Positions 18,905 through 29,060 of a stretch of 32,734 nt of DNA are shown here, one piece after another. Within the stretch, counting starts at the first letter, position 1, and each line of letters starts with the position of its first letter. The notes beneath the pieces are model-generated. The model saw nothing but the letters and a program-made list of their open reading frames with translations. It had not been told where the DNA came from and made no database searches. Location: positions 1 through 32,734 of the forward strand of contig JANQGV010000299.1 in NCBI GenBank assembly GCA_028282925.1. Reading direction: 5' to 3'. The stretch is from Thermodesulfobacteriota bacterium (GTDB lineage Bacteria > Desulfobacterota > WTBG01 > CAIYCZ01 > CAIRTM01). The position numbers were made by a program, and so were the translations under genes.

Positions 18905-19305
18905 AGCCAGCCCTCATCTTCACTCTTCACCCATCAAAATAAAATTTTCTTAAACACATAGGTAGTTCTGCTTATTTACATTTTTTATTCACTTGTGGTA
19001 TTGAGTGAGCACAACTACACAGGAATGAGTTGGTTATACCCGCCGAACCTGATTTCAACATCCAGGAATTCGAATCTGACAGTAACGTGAGAAGCACGAT
19101 GAAGCGCAACACGGTCTTTTGTAATAGTTGTTGTTTTTATGGGGCATAGCAACTTTCCCCGCTCTACCAACATCAAACAGAAAAGTAACAAAAGTGTTTT
19201 CCTCACCATCCCTTTGGCAGAACAAACCATACAAAAGGCTGTTGCTTGGGTAATGAGTCAGATAGTTCAGGGTCAACACCAAAAACTTATTTACAGGGGA
19301 ATACT
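18905..19305. other. Regulatory leader upstream of the EEP gene
   Basis: No real gene is seen in these 401 bp; minus-strand open frames are short and unlike any family. It contains a response-regulator-like box at 18960-18980 with a possible extended -10 near 18996-19003 (TGTGGTATTG). This implies a 5' leader of roughly 300 nt before the ATG at 19306. No known riboswitch could be recognised in it. Confidence 0.4.
18960..18980 (+). promoter_or_regulatory. FixJ/NarL-like box, copy A
   Basis: AGGTAGTTCTGCTTATTTAC is one of three related sites (also 23057 and 23703). An extended -10-like CTTGTGGTAT lies about 32 bp further on. The core resembles binding sites of FixJ-type response regulators (TAnGTAGTTnnnCTTA). 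The assignment is by resemblance only. Confidence 0.5.
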
Positions 19306-20145
19306 ATGAAATTTTCATTTTTGTCATGGAATGTACGGATGTATAAAGGCAGTTCGAGCCGTTTGGCAGAGGCCGATAAACTTATAACAGGTCTTAATCC
19401 TGATGTGTTCGGTCTTATCGAGTTCAGGGCTAAAAAGCAGATGCGCACACTGATGCTGAAGCATTTCAAAGAATATGATTTTGCAGTCACAGACAGCAAG
19501 GGTGGCCTTGAGATGATCGTTGGCTGGCGTCGTGGAAAATTCCAGCAGGTTATCTGGACCCAGAAACGCGGCTTCCTTAATAAGAATCTCGGATTGCGAC
19601 CCGGTGGTCTCGTGTCGGTGGTGTACGGTGGTGAGGTTTATAATCTATTATATCTCCACACCGATTCCGGTACCGACAAAAAAGCATATGAAAACCGCAA
19701 AGCAATGTTCAAGAAAATCTGGAAACTGCAAACCGCACTGAAAAAGAACAGCTCAAACAACCGGGCCAACCTGATTGCAATGGGCGATCTTAACACCATG
19801 GGAAAAGGCAGAACCATTTCAGGCCAGGCCGAGATAAATAAACTGAAACGTGACGCTGAAAAAAACGGCATGCGCATGCTGTACAAGGATAAAGAGTACA
19901 CTTGGCATCAATGGGGCACCGGCCCGCGCGGAAGAAGAAAAAAATTGAAGGTAAGCGAACTGGCTGACGCAAAGAAGTCGGACCTGGATCATGTTATTGC
20001 AAGCAAGGAGCTTTCTTTCTACGATCTTGACGGTAACAACAATGAAATACTCGTGCGGGGATGGAATCAGCTTGACGGAATGGACAGGATTAATTTCCTG
20101 TGGGATCTATCCGATCATTCGGCCCTGTATGGAGAGCTGGCATAA
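19306..20145 (+). CDS. Endonuclease/exonuclease/phosphatase (EEP) family protein
   Basis: A 279-residue protein with no signal peptide, starting MKFSFLSWNVRMYKG. EEP fold marks appear in order: SWNVRM (the Asn), DVFGLIEFRA (the metal-binding Glu), MGDLNTMGKG (the D-x-N pair) and LSDHSALYGEL (catalytic Asp-His near the end). This family cuts phosphodiester bonds, as in DNase I, exonuclease III or sphingomyelinase. The absence of a signal peptide and the high Lys content favour a nucleic acid substrate, but this is open. AGGGGA lies 6-7 nt before the ATG. An orphan AAGGAG right after the stop (20149) suggests another gene once followed. Confidence 0.85.
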   Translation: MKFSFLSWNVRMYKGSSSRLAEADKLITGLNPDVFGLIEFRAKKQMRTLMLKHFKEYDFAVTDSKGGLEMIVGWRRGKFQQVIWTQKRGFLNKNLGLRPGGLVSVVYGGEVYNLLYLHTDSGTDKKAYENRKAMFKKIWKLQTALKKNSSNNRANLIAMGDLNTMGKGRTISGQAEINKLKRDAEKNGMRMLYKDKEYTWHQWGTGPRGRRKKLKVSELADAKKSDLDHVIASKELSFYDLDGNNNEILVRGWNQLDGMDRINFLWDLSDHSALYGELA

Positions 20146-20193
20146 TTAAGGAGTGTACGTAATAGGTGTCACATCTTGATTAGTGATTAATGG

Positions 20194-20222
20194 TTGACAC
20201 GAACCAAGGGAATTGATACTAA
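20194..20222 (+). promoter_or_regulatory. RAYT promoter, probably leaderless transcript
   Basis: TTGACA (20194-20199), a 17-bp spacer and TACTAA (20217-20222). Transcription would begin about 7 nt on, at or next to the ATG at 20229, so the mRNA may be leaderless. The GGGAG just before the ATG is too close for normal use. The -35 lies in the element's own palindromic end. Confidence 0.5.
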
Positions 20223-20228
20223 GGGAGT

Positions 20229-21197
20229 ATGACACGACAATGGCGGATTGAGTATGAGAATGCGCTGTATCATGTGATGTCTCGCGGCAATGAGCAACGG
20301 GATATTGTACGTGATGATCATGACCGGACGCGATTTCTGGAAATATTGGGCAACATGAGTCGGCGCCATGGTGTAGAGGTTCACGCTTATGTTTTGATGA
20401 ATAACCATTACCATTTGCTCTTAAGAACACCCCGGGCAAATCTTTCACGGAGTATGCAGTGGTTTTCCATCACTTACACACGATATTTTAATACAAGGCA
20501 TCAGCGTAGCGGACACCTATTCCAAGGGCGTTTCAAGAGTTTCTTGGTTGAAAATGACGCCTACCTGATGCAGTTATCCTGTTACATTCATCGGAATCCC
20601 ATCCGGACAAACATGGCAAATCGTCTTATTGACTATCCCTGGAGCAGCTATAAAGCATATGCCTACGACAAGAATAAACCGGAATGGTTGGAAACATCCC
20701 TGATTCTGTCACAGGTTCCAAGGCGAGGAAAACATACTGCGTATCGCAATTACGTGCAAGAGTATGCCCGTGAAGATAAGCGCATATGGGAGGATGTTAA
20801 ATACGGACTTTTGCTTGGTGGAGAAGATTTTGCAGAGGATATCAAAGATAGATTTCTGAATGGGGGCAATCCAGGAGCAGAATTTCCCCAGCAAAAAAAG
20901 ATATTAAAAGCGGAAAATCCAGAGGCAAAATTGAAAGAGGCATCCGCCATGCTTGGCCTTGATGTAGAAGAGATGGTCGGGCGGAGGCGGGTCAGACAAA
21001 AAGATAAAGAGAACCGTGATTTGCTTTTGTATGCCTTGTGGGAAGCCGGTCGATATACCAATTACGAAATAGGGGAGATGTTTGGATTGAGTTATTCAGC
21101 CGTAAGTCGAAGGGTGCACATGATGCGTAAGGATATTTCTATTGATCGAAAGTTGCAGAAAACATATAAACAAATTAAATCACTAATCAAGATGTGA
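20229..21197 (+). CDS. REP-associated tyrosine transposase (Y1/HUH, IS200-like)
   Basis: A 322-residue protein. It opens with MTRQWRIEYENALYHVMSRGN and has the HUH pair in MNNHYHLLLRTP (about 57-68) and the RAYT-typical SGHLFQGRFKSFLVENDAYLMQLSCYIHRNP (about 98-128; the nucleophilic Tyr is probably in this helix). The C-terminal third carries a DnaA-like or HTH domain (YTNYEIGEMFGLSYSAVSRRVHMM) found in the longer members of this group. No frameshift or internal stop is seen, so it may be active. The stop overlaps the next open frame's GTG (GTGA). Confidence 0.93.
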   Translation: MTRQWRIEYENALYHVMSRGNEQRDIVRDDHDRTRFLEILGNMSRRHGVEVHAYVLMNNHYHLLLRTPRANLSRSMQWFSITYTRYFNTRHQRSGHLFQGRFKSFLVENDAYLMQLSCYIHRNPIRTNMANRLIDYPWSSYKAYAYDKNKPEWLETSLILSQVPRRGKHTAYRNYVQEYAREDKRIWEDVKYGLLLGGEDFAEDIKDRFLNGGNPGAEFPQQKKILKAENPEAKLKEASAMLGLDVEEMVGRRRVRQKDKENRDLLLYALWEAGRYTNYEIGEMFGLSYSAVSRRVHMMRKDISIDRKLQKTYKQIKSLIKM

Positions 21198-22798
21198 CAC
21201 CTTGGCCCCTCTGGTCAGGTAGTAGTGCTACTATAAAAGTTCCTTCTAGTCCAGGGAATTATTATGTTTGGGTAAGATGTGTGCCGACTACCAGCAACTC
21301 AGCAGCAATCCAAGCATTTAAGAATGAAACTCCTGCAAGCTCTGGTGAAGAACGCAATAATAAATGGGGCACAAAAATAACTGTTCAGGAGAAATCTCCT
21401 GATTGTGATAGTCATGACCATACTGGATGCTACCAGGGAGATTCTTATTGGTATGACTCATGTAATAATAGAGAGGAAAAAAACGAAGAGTGCGGTGAAA
21501 GTGAGTATGTTGGCTCTAATTATTGTTTGGATGGTGATGTTTATAGAAATCATGAAAATGTCGGATGTGATGCAGGTTCTTGCTATTTAAATACCAATCA
21601 AGTAAGGCAAGAAGTTTGTTCCAATGGTTGTTCAAATGGAGCATGCTTACCTGATGGCTCTGGTTCTGGCGGAAGCTCTCATGCTTCATACAGATGTTCT
21701 GAGGGTAATATTTATTGGTTTGATTCTGAAGGCAACAGAGAAGAATTAAAAGAGAGTTGTGGTATAAGCGGTTATACAGGAGAGGCCTATTGTGGCGATG
21801 ATGATAACTTATATCGTGACTATGTAACAAAAGATTGTTCAGATAGTGCGTGTTATGAAGTGATAGAAAAGAAAAAAATATATGATTGCAGGTATGAATG
21901 TAAGGATGGGGAATGTGACGATACCCCTCCTCCTGAAGAAACCTATAAGTGTTATGACAACGATGTCTACTGGTTTGATGCTAATGGCAATAAAGGAAAC
22001 AAAAAAGAAGAGTGCGGGGATGATGGTTATGTAGGCAATGCGTATTGTGAGGGAGATAAGCTTTATCAGGATTATGAAAAAAATATCTGTTCAGATGATA
22101 CTTGTATTTCACAGGTTGAAAAGAAGTCTATAGACTGTGTGTATGGGTGTGAAGATGATAAATGTAAAAACAAACCTGATTCCCATGACTATTACGAATG
22201 CTATAGTGGAGATGTTTACTGGTATAATTCTGCCGGCAATAGGGAAGAGAAAAAAGAAGAGTGTGGTGAAAGTGGTTATTCTGGAGATGCCTATTGCGAC
22301 AACAATGATGTGTATAGGGATTATGAAAAAAATATTTGTTCAGACGATTCCTGTGATTCAGATATTCAAAAGATGTTAATTTTAAATTGTGAGTATGAGT
22401 GTATTGATGGTGCGTGTACGCATGATTCTTACAAGTGTTATAACGATGATGTCTATTGGTATAACTCTAATGGTGAGAGAGAAGGAGTAAAAGAGTATTG
22501 TGAAGATGAATGTGTAAATGGCAAGTGTGTTAGCACTTCAAATGATTGTGTAATTTCATATCTTGCAGAAACCAACCCTTATCAACTAGAAACTTTTAGA
22601 AAGTTTCGTGATGAAGTTCTTTTAAAAAATAGTTTTGGTCGAGAAATTGTTAAGTTTAACTATCAACATTCAGATGAAATTGTTTCTTTGCTTGAAGAAT
22701 ATCCAATTCTAAAAAACACTGCAAAGAAAATGATGCCTGTTGTTATTCCTATGATTAAATCTTTGCTTGATTCTCCTGCTTTTCATAAAGGAGAGTGA
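21194..22798 (+). CDS. Cysteine-rich repeat protein with CFI-box-like C-terminus, 5'-truncated
   Basis: 534 codons are open from GTG 21194. No signal peptide is present: the first residues come from the RAYT repeat, then SATIKVPSSPGNYYVWVRC resembles the end of a CARDB/Ig-like strand domain, so the original N-terminus is probably lost. From about residue 75 there are four full Cys modules of about 70-75 residues and a partial fifth. Each has C-x-x-x-D-x-YW[FY], an NxEE or NREE turn, [ES]CG, YCxxxxLYRDY, CSDxxC and a closing C-x-x-xC-x-x-G-x-C. Residues 452-534 match, without gaps over 49 residues, the end of the cytochrome c at 4724-5413. It looks like an extracellular adhesin or surface protein. 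Whether the truncated gene is expressed is uncertain. Confidence 0.72.
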   Translation: MTPWPLWSGSSATIKVPSSPGNYYVWVRCVPTTSNSAAIQAFKNETPASSGEERNNKWGTKITVQEKSPDCDSHDHTGCYQGDSYWYDSCNNREEKNEECGESEYVGSNYCLDGDVYRNHENVGCDAGSCYLNTNQVRQEVCSNGCSNGACLPDGSGSGGSSHASYRCSEGNIYWFDSEGNREELKESCGISGYTGEAYCGDDDNLYRDYVTKDCSDSACYEVIEKKKIYDCRYECKDGECDDTPPPEETYKCYDNDVYWFDANGNKGNKKEECGDDGYVGNAYCEGDKLYQDYEKNICSDDTCISQVEKKSIDCVYGCEDDKCKNKPDSHDYYECYSGDVYWYNSAGNREEKKEECGESGYSGDAYCDNNDVYRDYEKNICSDDSCDSDIQKMLILNCEYECIDGACTHDSYKCYNDDVYWYNSNGEREGVKEYCEDECVNGKCVSTSNDCVISYLAETNPYQLETFRKFRDEVLLKNSFGREIVKFNYQHSDEIVSLLEEYPILKNTAKKMMPVVIPMIKSLLDSPAFHKGE

Positions 22799-22799
22799 T

Positions 22800-23042
22800 A
22801 TGGTAGACAGAGTAACCTCTGAGCTTGTGTATATCATTAACCGTGCAGAAGATGGAGGTTGTAGAAGTGATGCTGTAAAGACTCTTCTTAATATGCTGCC
22901 TGCGCTTGATGAGGAATCAATTGATAGGGTTATAGCTGATATGACTTGGTTTATTTGTAATAGTCATGATGAAAGCAGAAGAAAAGCAGCTCAGGATGTT
23001 CTTGTTATTTTAAAGAATGTCAAGTCTATAGAGGTTAGCTGA
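22800..23042 (+). CDS. Small helical protein, HEAT-like
   Basis: An 80-residue protein starting at ATG 22800, one base after the preceding stop, with GGAGAG 6-7 nt upstream, so translationally coupled. It has about four helices with two halves of similar pattern (LVYIINRAEDGGCRSDAVKTLL and FICNSHDESRRKAAQDVLVIL). This suggests a pair of HEAT-like hairpins. It has no signal peptide and only two Cys, unlike its exported neighbour. No function is recognised. The shared operon suggests a link with the cysteine-rich protein. Confidence 0.68.
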   Translation: MVDRVTSELVYIINRAEDGGCRSDAVKTLLNMLPALDEESIDRVIADMTWFICNSHDESRRKAAQDVLVILKNVKSIEVS

Positions 23043-23056
23043 TTAAAGCTAGGCAT

Positions 23057-23100
23057 AGGTAGTTATGCTTATTTATTCCTGTAATGATTTGTGATAAAAT
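23057..23100 (+). promoter_or_regulatory. FixJ/NarL-like box, copy B, with extended -10
   Basis: AGGTAGTTATGCTTATTTA (23057-23075) differs from copy A at one position over this length. TTTGTGATAAAAT follows, giving an extended -10 (TGTGATAAAAT) ending near 23100, about 33 bp upstream of the lipoprotein start. Confidence 0.55.
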
Positions 23101-23132
23101 TTTATTCAGGTTTTTTTGAGTAACAGCCATTC

Positions 23133-23543
23133 ATGAATAGAGGGGCAGTTGTGCGAAGGTTTTATTTTAATTTTCCTGTTTTAATATTATTTGTTTTTGT
23201 TGGTTGTGCCTATAACAAACCAGATAGTGTTCTTGGTTATTGGCTCAGAGTCGATAACCCGTATTATACTGTTCAGTTTGATGAATCAAATTATACTCTT
23301 AGAAAAAAGGCAGATTCTTCTAAGGGTGACACTGGTAAAGATATTATTAAAAAGGGTTTGTATTTTCAGCAAGGAGAGAAAGCATTTATTCTGGAAGCAA
23401 AGGATAAGCAAGGATTGCCATTGAAGATTAATATGCAATTAAGGGGCACTGGTTTGTATATTGGAGAAAAACGATTTGAAAAAATTAAATCGCTTGGAGA
23501 TCAACAGAGATATATAAAACACTATAATCATAAAAACCTTTAA
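23133..23543 (+). CDS. Small lipoprotein of unknown function
   Basis: A 136-residue lipoprotein with lipobox FVGC (Cys25). The mature part holds short strands (GYWLRVDNPYYTVQFDESNYTL; GLYFQQGEKAFILEA; GTGLYIGEKRFEKI), a beta-rich small domain similar in style to other small envelope lipoproteins. The Shine-Dalgarno sequence is weak (GAG at about 12 nt). A clear regulator box and extended -10 lie directly upstream and a strong hairpin terminator downstream, so it is a monocistronic unit. No family is recognised. Confidence 0.72.
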   Translation: MNRGAVVRRFYFNFPVLILFVFVGCAYNKPDSVLGYWLRVDNPYYTVQFDESNYTLRKKADSSKGDTGKDIIKKGLYFQQGEKAFILEAKDKQGLPLKINMQLRGTGLYIGEKRFEKIKSLGDQQRYIKHYNHKNL

Positions 23544-23604
23544 TTATGATACAGCAAAGCAGATAACCCTTTGTTTTTTTGTAAGCATCTGCCTTGGCAT
23601 TATA

Positions 23605-23681
23605 AATTAAAAAAAGCGGAGTTTTTCCTTCCTCCCTGCCTGCCAACTGCCCCTCGGCAGGTAGGGCCGCTTTTTTTAATT
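23605..23681. terminator. Large bidirectional terminator hairpin
   Basis: AATTAAAAAAAGCGG (23605-23619) is perfectly complementary to CCGCTTTTTTTAATT (23667-23681). An inner stem CTGCC/GGCAG adds to it. A-run and T-run flanks allow termination in both directions. It separates the lipoprotein gene from the giant gene's control region. Confidence 0.75.
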
Positions 23682-23702
23682 CAGCAAGCTGGCCTTTGTG
23701 GT

Positions 23703-23752
23703 AAGTAGTTCTACTCATTTACATCTTCCCGTTAATACATCTCTTGTACTAT
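23703..23752 (+). promoter_or_regulatory. FixJ/NarL-like box, copy C
   Basis: AAGTAGTTCTACTCATTTAC (23703-23722) shares the AGTAGTT-C/A-T-R-CT-Y-ATTTA core with copies A and B. A -10-like CTTGTACTAT follows at 23743-23752, about 9 bp further away than in A and B. It would give a leader of about 450 nt for the gene at 24213. Confidence 0.48.
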
Positions 23753-24212: not shown

Positions 24213-27200
24213 ATGTGTACAGAAAAAAGAATAGGGGCAATAGGAGTAATATTTTTTATATTTAGTTTTTCATTGTCATTACTGGCATTTGAAAACGCTA
24301 ATGCCACGGAAGCAAAAATTTCAGGAAATGACCATTGCATGGCTATAAAGCCTAATGGAACGTTATGGGGTTGGAGAGACAACTATTATGGTCAAATTGG
24401 TGACGGTACAAATAGTGACAAGAACACACCTACTCAAATTGGAAGTACTGCAGCTTGGAAAGACCTGTCAGCCGGAGGGATTCACAGTCTGGCTGTAAAG
24501 GACAACGGAACTTTGTGGTCTTGGGGATACAATTCTTATGGACAGTTGGGTGATGGTACAAACAATGACAGGAACACACCAGCACAAGTCGGTTCATCTA
24601 CGAGTTGGTCTGCTGTTTCTGGAGGTTACTATCACAGCCTGGCAATTCAAGACGACGGTACCTTGTGGTCGTGGGGGTATAATTATCGTGGACAGTTGGG
24701 TGATGGTACAAACAATGACAGGAACACACCAGCACAAGTTGGCTCAGCCACTAATTGGACTGCTGTGGCTGGAGGAAGTTACCACAGCATGGCATTAAAA
24801 AACGATGGAACCTTGTGGTCGTGGGGGGGTAATTGGGTTGGTCAACTCGGTGATGGGACAAACAACAACAGAAACACCCCAGCACAGGTCGGTTCAGCCA
24901 CTAACTGGGCCGTTGTAAGCACCGGCTCTTTTCATAACCTTGCGCTCAAAACAAACGGTACGCTGTGGTCATGGGGAAATAATGACTATGGTCAACTCGG
25001 CGATGGGACACACGAGAATAATAAGTTTTCTCCAACACAGGTCGGTTCAGCCACTAACTGGAAGGCTGTGTCTGCCGGGCACTATCACAGTCTTGCATTG
25101 AAAAACGATGGAACCCTATGGTCATGGGGTGCTAATGAGTATGGTCAGCTTGGTGATGGAAACCATGGATCGGGAGAGGGGCATCAATACGACAGGCATT
25201 CACCAGCCAGGGTGGGTACCGGCAATGACTGGGTTGCAGTTAGCGCAGGAGAGAAACTCAGTTTAGCGCTGAAAGAAGATGGCACGCTGTGGGGGTGGGG
25301 AAGTGAGGTCGGTGATGGGACAAGCTATATTCGCCCGTTACCGGTTCAAATAATGTATGTTGCTGGAATCAGTGTTACCGACCCTGGTGATAGCAAATCG
25401 CTTATTGTGAAAGTGCGCAAATATAAAACAGATGGTGCCTATTCCTATAAGGTCTATCGACGTAAGCATGGTGAGCCGTATGATTTTGACAACGAGAGCA
25501 AATCAGTTGTTGCAGAGGGAGAGTACGGTCCAAATATGGAGGATACTTCTGACGAATTTATTATTGTTGATGACAAAAATATTGAGCCTGGAGATTTATA
25601 TTATTATACAGTCACGTTTAAAACAATGCCGCCAGTTGGTCAAGAAACACTTCCTCAGACAGAAGAAGCATCAAAAGAGAAAAGTAAACCGGTAGTGCTT
25701 TTGATACGTGGCCATGGCGCTGATGGGCAATATTATTGGAAAGGAGATTCTGATAATAGCAGCGATTTTTTTGGAAATTTAAAAAATGATTTTGAAGTTT
25801 GGGACGCAACAAATACTGACAACTATACTTCCCAGTATGGTTGGTGCGGGGAATATGAAACGTATGGCGAATATTGTAATGGAGAAGCTAGTAAATGGTA
25901 TATTCCTTTCTGTCGAGAAGAGTATTGTAGACAACTTGGAGACCCAAACTGTGCTAATACCATGGGCGCTGTCGGCAAGTGTATGCCCGAAGACGTTGCC
26001 GTTGGCCTTGAAAAATGGGTCGTTAATAAACTGGATATTTTAAAAAAAGAGGGTAACCCTTGGCCATCGACCTTTAATATTATCGGCCACAGCTATGGTG
26101 GTTTGACTTCTCGTAAGTTCATCCAGCACTGGAACGAAGAGGTATTGCCAAATAATCCAGACTATCCTAAAATTGACCGTATTATTATGCTGTCTCCCGC
26201 TAATACCGGCGCAATGATAATGGAGTTTATCATGCGATTTCCAGCACCTTGGGTTATTGTTCTTGGATCAAAACATATTACTTACTGGCCTACAACTCAG
26301 AACCTGATTCCCTACCGAGCTTGGCTGAATATTATTAATAATATGGAAATACAAAACGATCATGAGTATTTTATAATAGCTGGTATTGATTGGAGATTGC
26401 GAGATATTCCAGACAGTGACACACGTCAACTACCCTTTCATTTTATGGGCAATCATGTTAAGTGGTTTACTAAATCAGTATCTTATCCTCAAGGTGAAAT
26501 AAAAAACGACTGTATGGTTGGTGCACATAGTAGTCATGGTGAAATTGCAGATGGAGTCTGGGAACGGCAAAAAATTAGATCATTACTTGATCCAGTAAAG
26601 GATAGTAACGACAAACCCATAATCCTGAGCAATAATCGAGATGATTACGAATTCCATCCCAAACACAAAACAGTGTGGGAAGCGGCCTATAATCATATTG
26701 AAATTACTCGAGACGATGATATTTTTAATTATTACGTAAAAGATATATTAAACGACAACGAAGGCGCAATTCAGGAACCACCAGTAAACAACTTCAAAGC
26801 TCCCTATTTAAGCCAACAGGGAAGTACTTCATGGACGACACCTCAGGCACTACCTTCTGTTTCAGATTCTATTCAAACAGGAGTTACTAAAACCACAGAG
26901 TATTTTATCGATCCGTCAGACAACATGACAATTACTCTCTTCTGGGAAGAGGGAAGCCTTGACTTAACCCTTACTGATACTGACAATAACACTATTAACC
27001 CTGCTGTAGCCGCCAGTAACTCTGATATTACCTTCAAAGACAATGAGACAGCCGATACAAAATTCAACAGTTATAATATATCAAGCCCAACAACCGGCAT
27101 ATGGATGGCTCATGTGTACGGTTTCTCAGTATCAGCTGGTGGCGAGGATTTTAACCTGTTTGCCATGGTTGATAATGATCTATCTTTGGAATTGTACACT

Positions 27201-29060
27201 CCAAATATTGCATTTTTGAATGGTTCTGATCCGGTCGTTTTCCAGGCCATAGCCCAAGAAGGACAGTCAGTTATAACCAATGTCCAGATTAATGCTATAA
27301 TTACTGCCCCTGATAATTCCACTGATAACCTGACTCTGTATGATGACGGCTTGCATTATGACAATGCAACCGACGATGGTATATTCGGCAACAGCTATTC
27401 TGGATTGTCTGATAACGGAACCTACATTGTAGATGTTACAGCTTTGGGGATTGACAGTGATAATGAGACCTTTGAACGTTCTTCTCGGTCATATTTTCAG
27501 GCATATAATCGTACTGGGCAGATAACCGGAGGAGTTTCTGATAGTGGCACTGACCAAGATGAAAATGGAAAATACAAAACCTTGAGTGTTGAAATAGGTT
27601 TTTCCATGACTCAGGACAGCCGGATAAGCCTGTCAGGCTCATTAAAGGATTCTTCCGGGAACAGAATTACTACAGCAAGTACTGTCCTTGACGCATCAAG
27701 CGGTACCGGGAGTGCAATGCTTGAATTCAGCGGTAATGAAATCTGGAACCATGGTGTAAACGGACCTTATTATGTTGAAAATGTTCTGCTAAGCACAGAG
27801 GACGAATCACCTTCGGCGCCTATGGATGCCATGGATACGTCATATACAACTGCTTCATACAGTTATAATGATTTTGCCTATTTCGATAGGGATAGTGATA
27901 ATCTGAGTGACCGGCAGGAAAATGAGATATTTAACACTCAGGATTTCAACCCTGACAGCGACAATGACGGGCTGAGTGATTTTGAGGAGATAGCATACGG
28001 CGGCGATAACAGCACTTACACAGTTGGAGTAGACACAGACCCTCTGAACGAAGATACGGATGGCGACGGTTTTTCAGATGGTATTGAAGTAAAAAGTTTT
28101 GACACAGACCCTCTTGACCCATCTGACACACCAGGTGACCAGGACAGTGACGGACTCCCCGACGACTGGGATAATTGTCCAACTACTGCTAACCCTCAGC
28201 AGCTTGATAATGATACTGATACTATAGGAACGGCCTGTGATAATTGTCCATTAATTAGCAATACATCTCAGACAGACTCTGACAATGATACAGTTGGTGA
28301 CCCATGCGATAACTGTCCTAATGATGCAAATCCCGACCAACTTGATACAGACAATGATACATATGGGGATATCTGCGATACGGATATTGATGGAGACGGT
28401 TTGGCAAATGATAATGATACTTGCCCTTCTGTTCCCAATAGCTCTGCTTTAGGAAGTTGTTTTGATTTTTATACCGAGACTGTTTGGGGAACATGTACGC
28501 AACACTCCGATTGCAAGGATAATGAGACAGAGTGGTGGAAATGGTGCGAAAACGCTTCATATGATATAGACAATGATACGATAGATAACCCTTGCGATAA
28601 TTGCCCGACAGCCGTAAATGCAGACCAGCAAAACAGTGATAATGATACAAGGGGAGATGCTTGTGACAACTGTCCTAATATTACGAATGCAGACCAGGCA
28701 GATACAGACAGTGACGAGATAGGAGATGTCTGTGACAACTGCCCTAATGATTCCAACACTAATCAGCTTAATTCAGACAATGATACCAAGGGAGATGCCT
28801 GTGACAACTGTCCTACAGTCAACAACGCAGCCGGGGCAGGCACTTGTTTTAATTATTTAACTAAGGAGGCATGGGGAAGCTGCACGTCACATCCGGAATG
28901 CCAGGATGGAGAAAATCAATGGTACCGTTGGTGTGACATTATTCAGAATGACCAGGATGGGGACGGCATAGGTGATGTCTGCGATAATTGTCCTCATGAC
29001 TCAAACCCAGGCCAAGAAGACAGTGACCAGGACGGCTTGGGTGATGCTTGCGATCCTTGA
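24213..29060 (+). CDS. Giant exported RCC1 - lipase - thrombospondin type 3 protein
   Basis: A 1615-residue protein with a signal peptide (about 1-31). Residues 35-380 hold RCC1 repeats (six full plus a partial seventh, about 50 residues each; DGTLWSWG and YGQLGDGT motifs), a seven-bladed propeller. At the DNA level, 24540-24589 and 24690-24739 are identical, showing recent repeat copying. Residues 385-480 are a fibronectin-like linker. Residues 488-835 form an alpha/beta-hydrolase with RGHG near 498 and the nucleophile GHSYGG (Ser627). Residues 880-1225 have pre-peptidase or choice-of-anchor-X-like beta domains. Residues 1226-1615 are Asp-rich thrombospondin type 3 Ca-binding repeats (DNCP; DxDxDGxGD) with two W/C-rich inserts. 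It probably acts outside the cell as a calcium-stabilised esterase or lipase; the substrate is unknown. No sorting tag is seen at the C-terminus. Confidence 0.9.
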   Translation: MCTEKRIGAIGVIFFIFSFSLSLLAFENANATEAKISGNDHCMAIKPNGTLWGWRDNYYGQIGDGTNSDKNTPTQIGSTAAWKDLSAGGIHSLAVKDNGTLWSWGYNSYGQLGDGTNNDRNTPAQVGSSTSWSAVSGGYYHSLAIQDDGTLWSWGYNYRGQLGDGTNNDRNTPAQVGSATNWTAVAGGSYHSMALKNDGTLWSWGGNWVGQLGDGTNNNRNTPAQVGSATNWAVVSTGSFHNLALKTNGTLWSWGNNDYGQLGDGTHENNKFSPTQVGSATNWKAVSAGHYHSLALKNDGTLWSWGANEYGQLGDGNHGSGEGHQYDRHSPARVGTGNDWVAVSAGEKLSLALKEDGTLWGWGSEVGDGTSYIRPLPVQIMYVAGISVTDPGDSKSLIVKVRKYKTDGAYSYKVYRRKHGEPYDFDNESKSVVAEGEYGPNMEDTSDEFIIVDDKNIEPGDLYYYTVTFKTMPPVGQETLPQTEEASKEKSKPVVLLIRGHGADGQYYWKGDSDNSSDFFGNLKNDFEVWDATNTDNYTSQYGWCGEYETYGEYCNGEASKWYIPFCREEYCRQLGDPNCANTMGAVGKCMPEDVAVGLEKWVVNKLDILKKEGNPWPSTFNIIGHSYGGLTSRKFIQHWNEEVLPNNPDYPKIDRIIMLSPANTGAMIMEFIMRFPAPWVIVLGSKHITYWPTTQNLIPYRAWLNIINNMEIQNDHEYFIIAGIDWRLRDIPDSDTRQLPFHFMGNHVKWFTKSVSYPQGEIKNDCMVGAHSSHGEIADGVWERQKIRSLLDPVKDSNDKPIILSNNRDDYEFHPKHKTVWEAAYNHIEITRDDDIFNYYVKDILNDNEGAIQEPPVNNFKAPYLSQQGSTSWTTPQALPSVSDSIQTGVTKTTEYFIDPSDNMTITLFWEEGSLDLTLTDTDNNTINPAVAASNSDITFKDNETADTKFNSYNISSPTTGIWMAHVYGFSVSAGGEDFNLFAMVDNDLSLELYTPNIAFLNGSDPVVFQAIAQEGQSVITNVQINAIITAPDNSTDNLTLYDDGLHYDNATDDGIFGNSYSGLSDNGTYIVDVTALGIDSDNETFERSSRSYFQAYNRTGQITGGVSDSGTDQDENGKYKTLSVEIGFSMTQDSRISLSGSLKDSSGNRITTASTVLDASSGTGSAMLEFSGNEIWNHGVNGPYYVENVLLSTEDESPSAPMDAMDTSYTTASYSYNDFAYFDRDSDNLSDRQENEIFNTQDFNPDSDNDGLSDFEEIAYGGDNSTYTVGVDTDPLNEDTDGDGFSDGIEVKSFDTDPLDPSDTPGDQDSDGLPDDWDNCPTTANPQQLDNDTDTIGTACDNCPLISNTSQTDSDNDTVGDPCDNCPNDANPDQLDTDNDTYGDICDTDIDGDGLANDNDTCPSVPNSSALGSCFDFYTETVWGTCTQHSDCKDNETEWWKWCENASYDIDNDTIDNPCDNCPTAVNADQQNSDNDTRGDACDNCPNITNADQADTDSDEIGDVCDNCPNDSNTNQLNSDNDTKGDACDNCPTVNNAAGAGTCFNYLTKEAWGSCTSHPECQDGENQWYRWCDIIQNDQDGDGIGDVCDNCPHDSNPGQEDSDQDGLGDACDP

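Follow-up and report, generated by a model that had tools for sequence, protein, structure and literature searches.

A putative operator and a candidate NarL-type response regulator linking secreted-protein and defence genes in a Thermodesulfobacteriota genome

Regulators of the NarL/NarP type bind heptamer sites of the form TACYYMT, and LuxR-type class-II promoters carry a lux box centred at about -42.5. The inverted-repeat box described here, a putative operator, bears a likeness to both. Its half-site TRCTTAT/ATARGTA fits the NarL/NarP heptamer, and the candidate regulator combines a receiver with a GerE domain as these proteins do. However, the half-sites are arranged as AKRRGTA-N4-TRCYYAT, with GTA-N4-TAC on the inside, and not in the classic 7-2-7 order TACYYMT-NN-AKRRGTA. 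Similar to a lux box, it is a palindrome with an inner GTA...TAC that lies over the -35 and precedes a -10 element, whereas its 16-bp length, 4-bp centre, extended -10, tandem copies in relatives and presumed phospho-relay instead of an autoinducer set it apart. In Desulfovibrio vulgaris, response-regulator sites have been mapped, only five of the regulators being of the LytR or NarL type. Phage and antagonism defence is under Gac/Rsm control in Pseudomonas (PMC11888443), and in Marinomonas CRISPR-Cas is controlled by PpoS/PpoR, a pair resembling BarA/UvrY (PMC8523701). As is proposed here, both cases place defence and other functions under joint two-component control; however, they represent cascades of the Gac/Rsm (BarA/UvrY-Csr) type with post-transcriptional steps, whereas here the putative operator is located directly in the promoters of a retron and a Gabija system. 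The peptide locus reported below resembles geopeptide radical-SAM RiPP loci (TIGR04280) in its maturase scoring above the cut-off, its short CC-containing precursor and its adjoining TonB receptor, but differs in being joined to a two-component cluster and in its upstream box arrays, which are confined to this genome and the related genome G003. Literature searches on geopeptide, and on two-component systems, retrons and Gabija combined, retrieved nothing, and no report of the box, searched in six forms, was found in the open-access literature.

The window, that is, the whole stretch of 32,734 nucleotides analysed, corresponds to contig C318 in a draft genome of 5.62 Mb, which named relatives of its regulator place in a Desulfobacterota lineage; gene calls are mechanical. 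Scanning the window located all three copies of the box (TARGTA-nTTn-TRCTYAT) on the + strand, starting at 18959, 23056 and 23702. The core GTAGTTMTRCTYATTTA has exact matches at 18962, 23059 and 23705, and five matches with up to three mismatches were found against 0.45 expected. The inverted repeat reads TAGGTA-GTTC-TGCTTA in copy 1, TAGGTA-GTTA-TGCTTA in copy 2 and TAAGTA-GTTC-TACTCA in copy 3, each followed by a T. The original prediction had described a shared string beginning AGTAGTT; the three copies and their common core are indeed present, but the leading A occurs in copy 3 only, copies 1 and 2 reading GGTAGTT, and the unit itself reaches farther 5' to form the inverted repeat. Box 1 (TAGGTAGTTCTGCTTAT, 18959..18975, + strand) is followed by an extended -10-like element (TGGTATTGA, 18996..19004, +) one base beyond the distance standard for the regulon. 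Box 2 (TAGGTAGTTATGCTTAT, 23056..23072, +) fits the pattern of box, spacing and -10 exactly, its extended -10 (TGATAAAAT, 23092..23100, +) lying at the standard distance. For box 3 (TAAGTAGTTCTACTCAT, 23702..23718, +), no extended -10 was seen at the regulon-wide position or 1 bp to either side of it, and a TACTAT is found at 23747-23752, about 6 bp beyond the standard distance. The TTGTR motif begins 17, 16 and 25 bases past the box in copies 1, 2 and 3, as had been anticipated. The extended -10-like sequence expected after each copy was correctly called for copies 1 and 2 and stands at a non-standard distance in copy 3. A -35-like TTTACA is present at boxes 1 and 3. No Rfam match for an RNA element was found in the window.

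The genes downstream of the three boxes are all encoded on the + strand. The putative target of box 1 codes for a protein of the endonuclease/exonuclease/phosphatase (EEP) family (19306..20145), with its ATG 347 bp downstream of the box; a signal-peptide test found no signal peptide in this cytoplasmic nuclease-family protein. Box 2 precedes a small lipoprotein (23151..23543, with an alternative ATG at 23133), the paralogue of which at C108:4026 has a box promoter of its own. The putative target of box 3, which starts 495 bp after the box, encodes a 1615-aa secreted protein with RCC1 and thrombospondin-3 repeats (24213..29060). These assignments of an EEP-family protein, a small lipoprotein and a giant RCC1 protein agree with the earlier ones except for the label 'lipase', as neither Pfam nor NCBIfam gave a lipase domain in the 1615-aa protein. 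Between boxes 1 and 2, a tyrosine transposase of the REP-associated type occupies 20167-21200, with inverted GGTGTCACATCTTGATTAGTG at its ends, and right after it lies an ORF for a Cys-rich repeat protein (21194-22798) without an obvious signal start.

Across the genome, exact cores occur 28 times against 2 for the reversed pattern, which served as the control, and 23 box matches with at most two mismatches compare with 2 for the control, about 2 of the 23 being expected by chance. At three mismatches nothing stands out (40 in the genome versus 34 in the control). The pattern TANGTANTTNTRCTTAT with at most one mismatch is found at 27 places, 24 of them non-coding, that is, outside ORFs of at least 100 aa. 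In a 1.05-Mb background sample, 87% of all positions and 47% of AT-rich positions lie inside such ORFs, giving P ~1e-4 for the non-coding location even against AT-rich positions. Matches no more frequent upstream of genes than inside them would have spoken against the original prediction; instead, 24/27 are non-coding in a genome that is 13% non-coding. Sequence likeness stops at the box, a 3' T-run and the -10, the flanks being unrelated. The three boxes of the window thus belong to about two dozen promoters (20-28) scattered over the genome, and the idea of one regulon is supported by the many genes elsewhere whose box keeps a constant distance from a -10.

This spacing was assessed at the 27 sites, which had been chosen without looking downstream. 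A TGNTA lies exactly 19 bases past the box in 7 of them, against 0.16 expected per offset. The spacing peak is absent when the palindrome is read on its other strand, which gives the box a direction. Allowing one mismatch at most, box+N19+TGnTA occurs 14 times in this genome and never in the reversed control, and over 17 genomes of the class 23 times against 1. Taking the -10 hexamer at its usual -12 to -7, the box would be centred at about -43 to -43.5, and its last base together with the next five (TTTnCn) falls at -35, 17-18 bp from the -10. The operator would thus overlap the -35 at a fixed distance from the -10, which matches class-II activator promoters in geometry, as positioned from the sequence only. 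At 7 of 18 sites, an AGGGGC/GAGGGG element was also noticed 51-85 bases past the box (for example at 23140-23147 in the window), and at the RCC1 gene of the window it lies 266 bases past; the element is weakly enriched over background and was chosen post hoc.

Strong sites elsewhere in the genome precede genes for small lipoproteins (C56 and C108, besides that of the window) and secreted proteins (C118, C52 and C306, besides the RCC1/thrombospondin-3 protein), a hybrid kinase (C168) and a STAS-like protein (C298), among other genes. By a crude test, 10 of 16 targets carry a signal peptide compared with 75 of 318 background genes (24%; P 0.0015), and 8 remain after removal of two membrane proteins (P 0.02). 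The predicted enrichment of signal-peptide genes is therefore moderate (8-10 of 16), and the description 'exported or repeat-rich' suits part of the regulon and fails for the cytoplasmic EEP target. A Gabija system on C262 (L157:1932-5731), in which GajA (1011 bits) and GajB (845 bits) are adjacent, lies behind a box that has one mismatch and stands at the exact distance from its -10. A complete type II-A retron on C308 (L158:2340-4415), assigned by its NDT_II-A effector (171 bits) and RT_II-A reverse transcriptase (303 bits), has an exact box and extended -10 promoter directly before its ncRNA. Since Rfam returned chance-level matches only for this ncRNA, it was identified by its a1/a2 repeats and hairpin: a1 (GCATTAAACCTA) lies at L158:2410 and a2 (TAGGTTTTATGC) ends just past the NDT start, with 11 of 12 positions pairing, and the 27-bp msd hairpin has a z-score of -10. 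The predicted transcription start lies about 18 nt before a1. On C37, a geopeptide RiPP locus (L031:5980-7816) has four boxes upstream of a short CC-containing precursor (MKPEEKKEIIVLDQGIDQMNMGPEALCCGIIFMPN, ending ...ALCCGIIFMPN) and its maturase, which scores 513 bits to TIGR04280 against a cut-off of 400; a TonB receptor is next door. G003 carries the same locus (L340), also joined to the two-component cluster, and the other geopeptide loci examined have no box. The putative regulon thus appears wider than exported genes, taking in two anti-phage systems and a peptide-making locus besides surface proteins. Two further exact boxes were noticed. One on C266 (L163:3453), with a -10, points into a gap of 336 bp that contains no obvious gene and may drive a small RNA; the target of the other, on C224 (L153:1898-3940), is a protein of at least 680 aa for which Pfam and PADLOC gave no match.

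Of the roughly 22 genes for GerE-domain proteins in this genome, only the one on C37 has a nearby box with a -10, within 130 bp downstream and with a perfect -10. Its product has a receiver followed by a GerE domain (Response_reg 94.5 bits, GerE 71.5 bits, both above cut-off) and is thus a NarL/FixJ (LuxR-type) response regulator. The phospho-acceptor Asp56, together with D11 and Lys106 (K106), is invariant in 9 orthologues. The best PDB relatives are VraR (5hev) and NarL (1a04); no curated NCBIfam equivalog cut-off is reached, the score for MctR (NF052445) being 181 bits against 300. On C37, an ABC_sub_bind solute-binding protein and a HisKA_3 kinase carrying a Cache domain are encoded ahead of the regulator.

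Orthologues of this regulator share 47-61% identity, and boxes lie in or near the regulator cluster on C37 itself, in the genomes G001, G002, G003, G010 and G036, and in three named MAGs (L194, L198 and L203). The box is found upstream of the kinase-regulator in G002, as a multi-copy array upstream of the kinase in G001, at both ends of the cluster in G003 and as tandems at the cluster in G010 and L194. G003, which has the closest orthologue (61%), contains two exact cores, neither beside the regulator, and its cluster boxes have one mismatch. In both G010 and G036, the sole exact box of the whole genome is at the regulator cluster. Weaker relatives in L210 and L216 have boxes in their clusters too. 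At the loci of close orthologues, 9 boxes compare with 2 in the control; at those of distant paralogues, the counts are 6 and 8. No adjacent box was found for the two orthologues in G022. The sister genus (G001 and G007) has a purer box, TGAGTA-TTTG-TACTCA, often in tandems 23-24 bp apart of which the gene-proximal copy keeps the -10 distance of this genome while the flanks differ; its targets include secreted repeat proteins of 1812 aa and of more than 1300 aa and BspA-like leucine-rich repeat proteins. The boxes apparently answer to the NarL-type response regulator on C37, in line with the original prediction of a response regulator encoded elsewhere, as its orthologues repeatedly adjoin the box.

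Therefore, we propose that the boxes are operators of a NarL/LuxR-family response regulator, with the C37 protein as the best candidate, acting by class-II activation, a reading to which we give a probability of about 0.78. Bound as a phosphorylated dimer to TRRGTA-nTTn-TRCYYA, with the centre near -43, the regulator would touch the poor -35 (TTTnCn) before the extended -10 (TGnTAnnnT) and stimulate transcription from there. It would control some 20-28 promoters, among them those of lipoproteins and large secreted proteins, two of which lie in the window, and of other sensor and STAS-like genes, as well as the geopeptide locus of its own cluster, the type II-A retron and Gabija. Physical binding, activation rather than repression, and the identity of the kinase signal are what we infer.

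It is unlikely that the box instead serves another DNA-binding protein, a NarL-type paralogue or an XRE-like one, with the C37-type cluster merely a target. One of the GerE paralogues could share the specificity, several families use short palindromes, and G007, an 85% complete MAG, has strong boxes while no close orthologue of the regulator was found in it; however, the box tracks the C37 subfamily across families and even phyla, including the genomes with a sole exact box, and no other GerE gene of the genome has a nearby box and -10. Improbable, too, is that the boxes are repressor sites from which the regulator keeps RNA polymerase off the -35 region. The box does adjoin the -35, so that a bound protein could equally obstruct it, and the TTTACA found at boxes 1 and 3 is not wholly unsuited as a -35, but the exact -10 spacing, fixed orientation, weak -35 with extended -10 and tandem upstream copies are of the activator type. 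That AT-rich composition or chance produced three functionless look-alikes is hardly credible, for although short AT-rich motifs recur often and the three-mismatch count barely exceeds its control, the high-stringency counts are at least 10-fold over controls and go along with sites outside genes at a constant distance from the -10. Scarcely tenable, too, is that the boxes are fragments of a mobile or dispersed repeat, as copies in accessory regions and the transposable element between boxes 1 and 2 might suggest, since the flanks are unrelated and the sister genus keeps box and spacing with different ones.

The regulator cluster could also form a peptide-signalling circuit, in which the modified peptide is exported and sensed via the TonB receptor or the binding protein. 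We regard this as quite doubtful. If true, one box would switch on surface proteins, retron and Gabija together, as a population- or danger-dependent programme.

Little is understood of how retrons and Gabija are regulated, and for most dispersed secreted or defence genes in uncultured bacteria no control is known. In this genome, one well-defined putative operator with a named candidate regulator would link secreted and defence genes, and TRRGTATTTnTRCYYAT-N19-TGnTA offers a short sequence that may predict which genes belong together.
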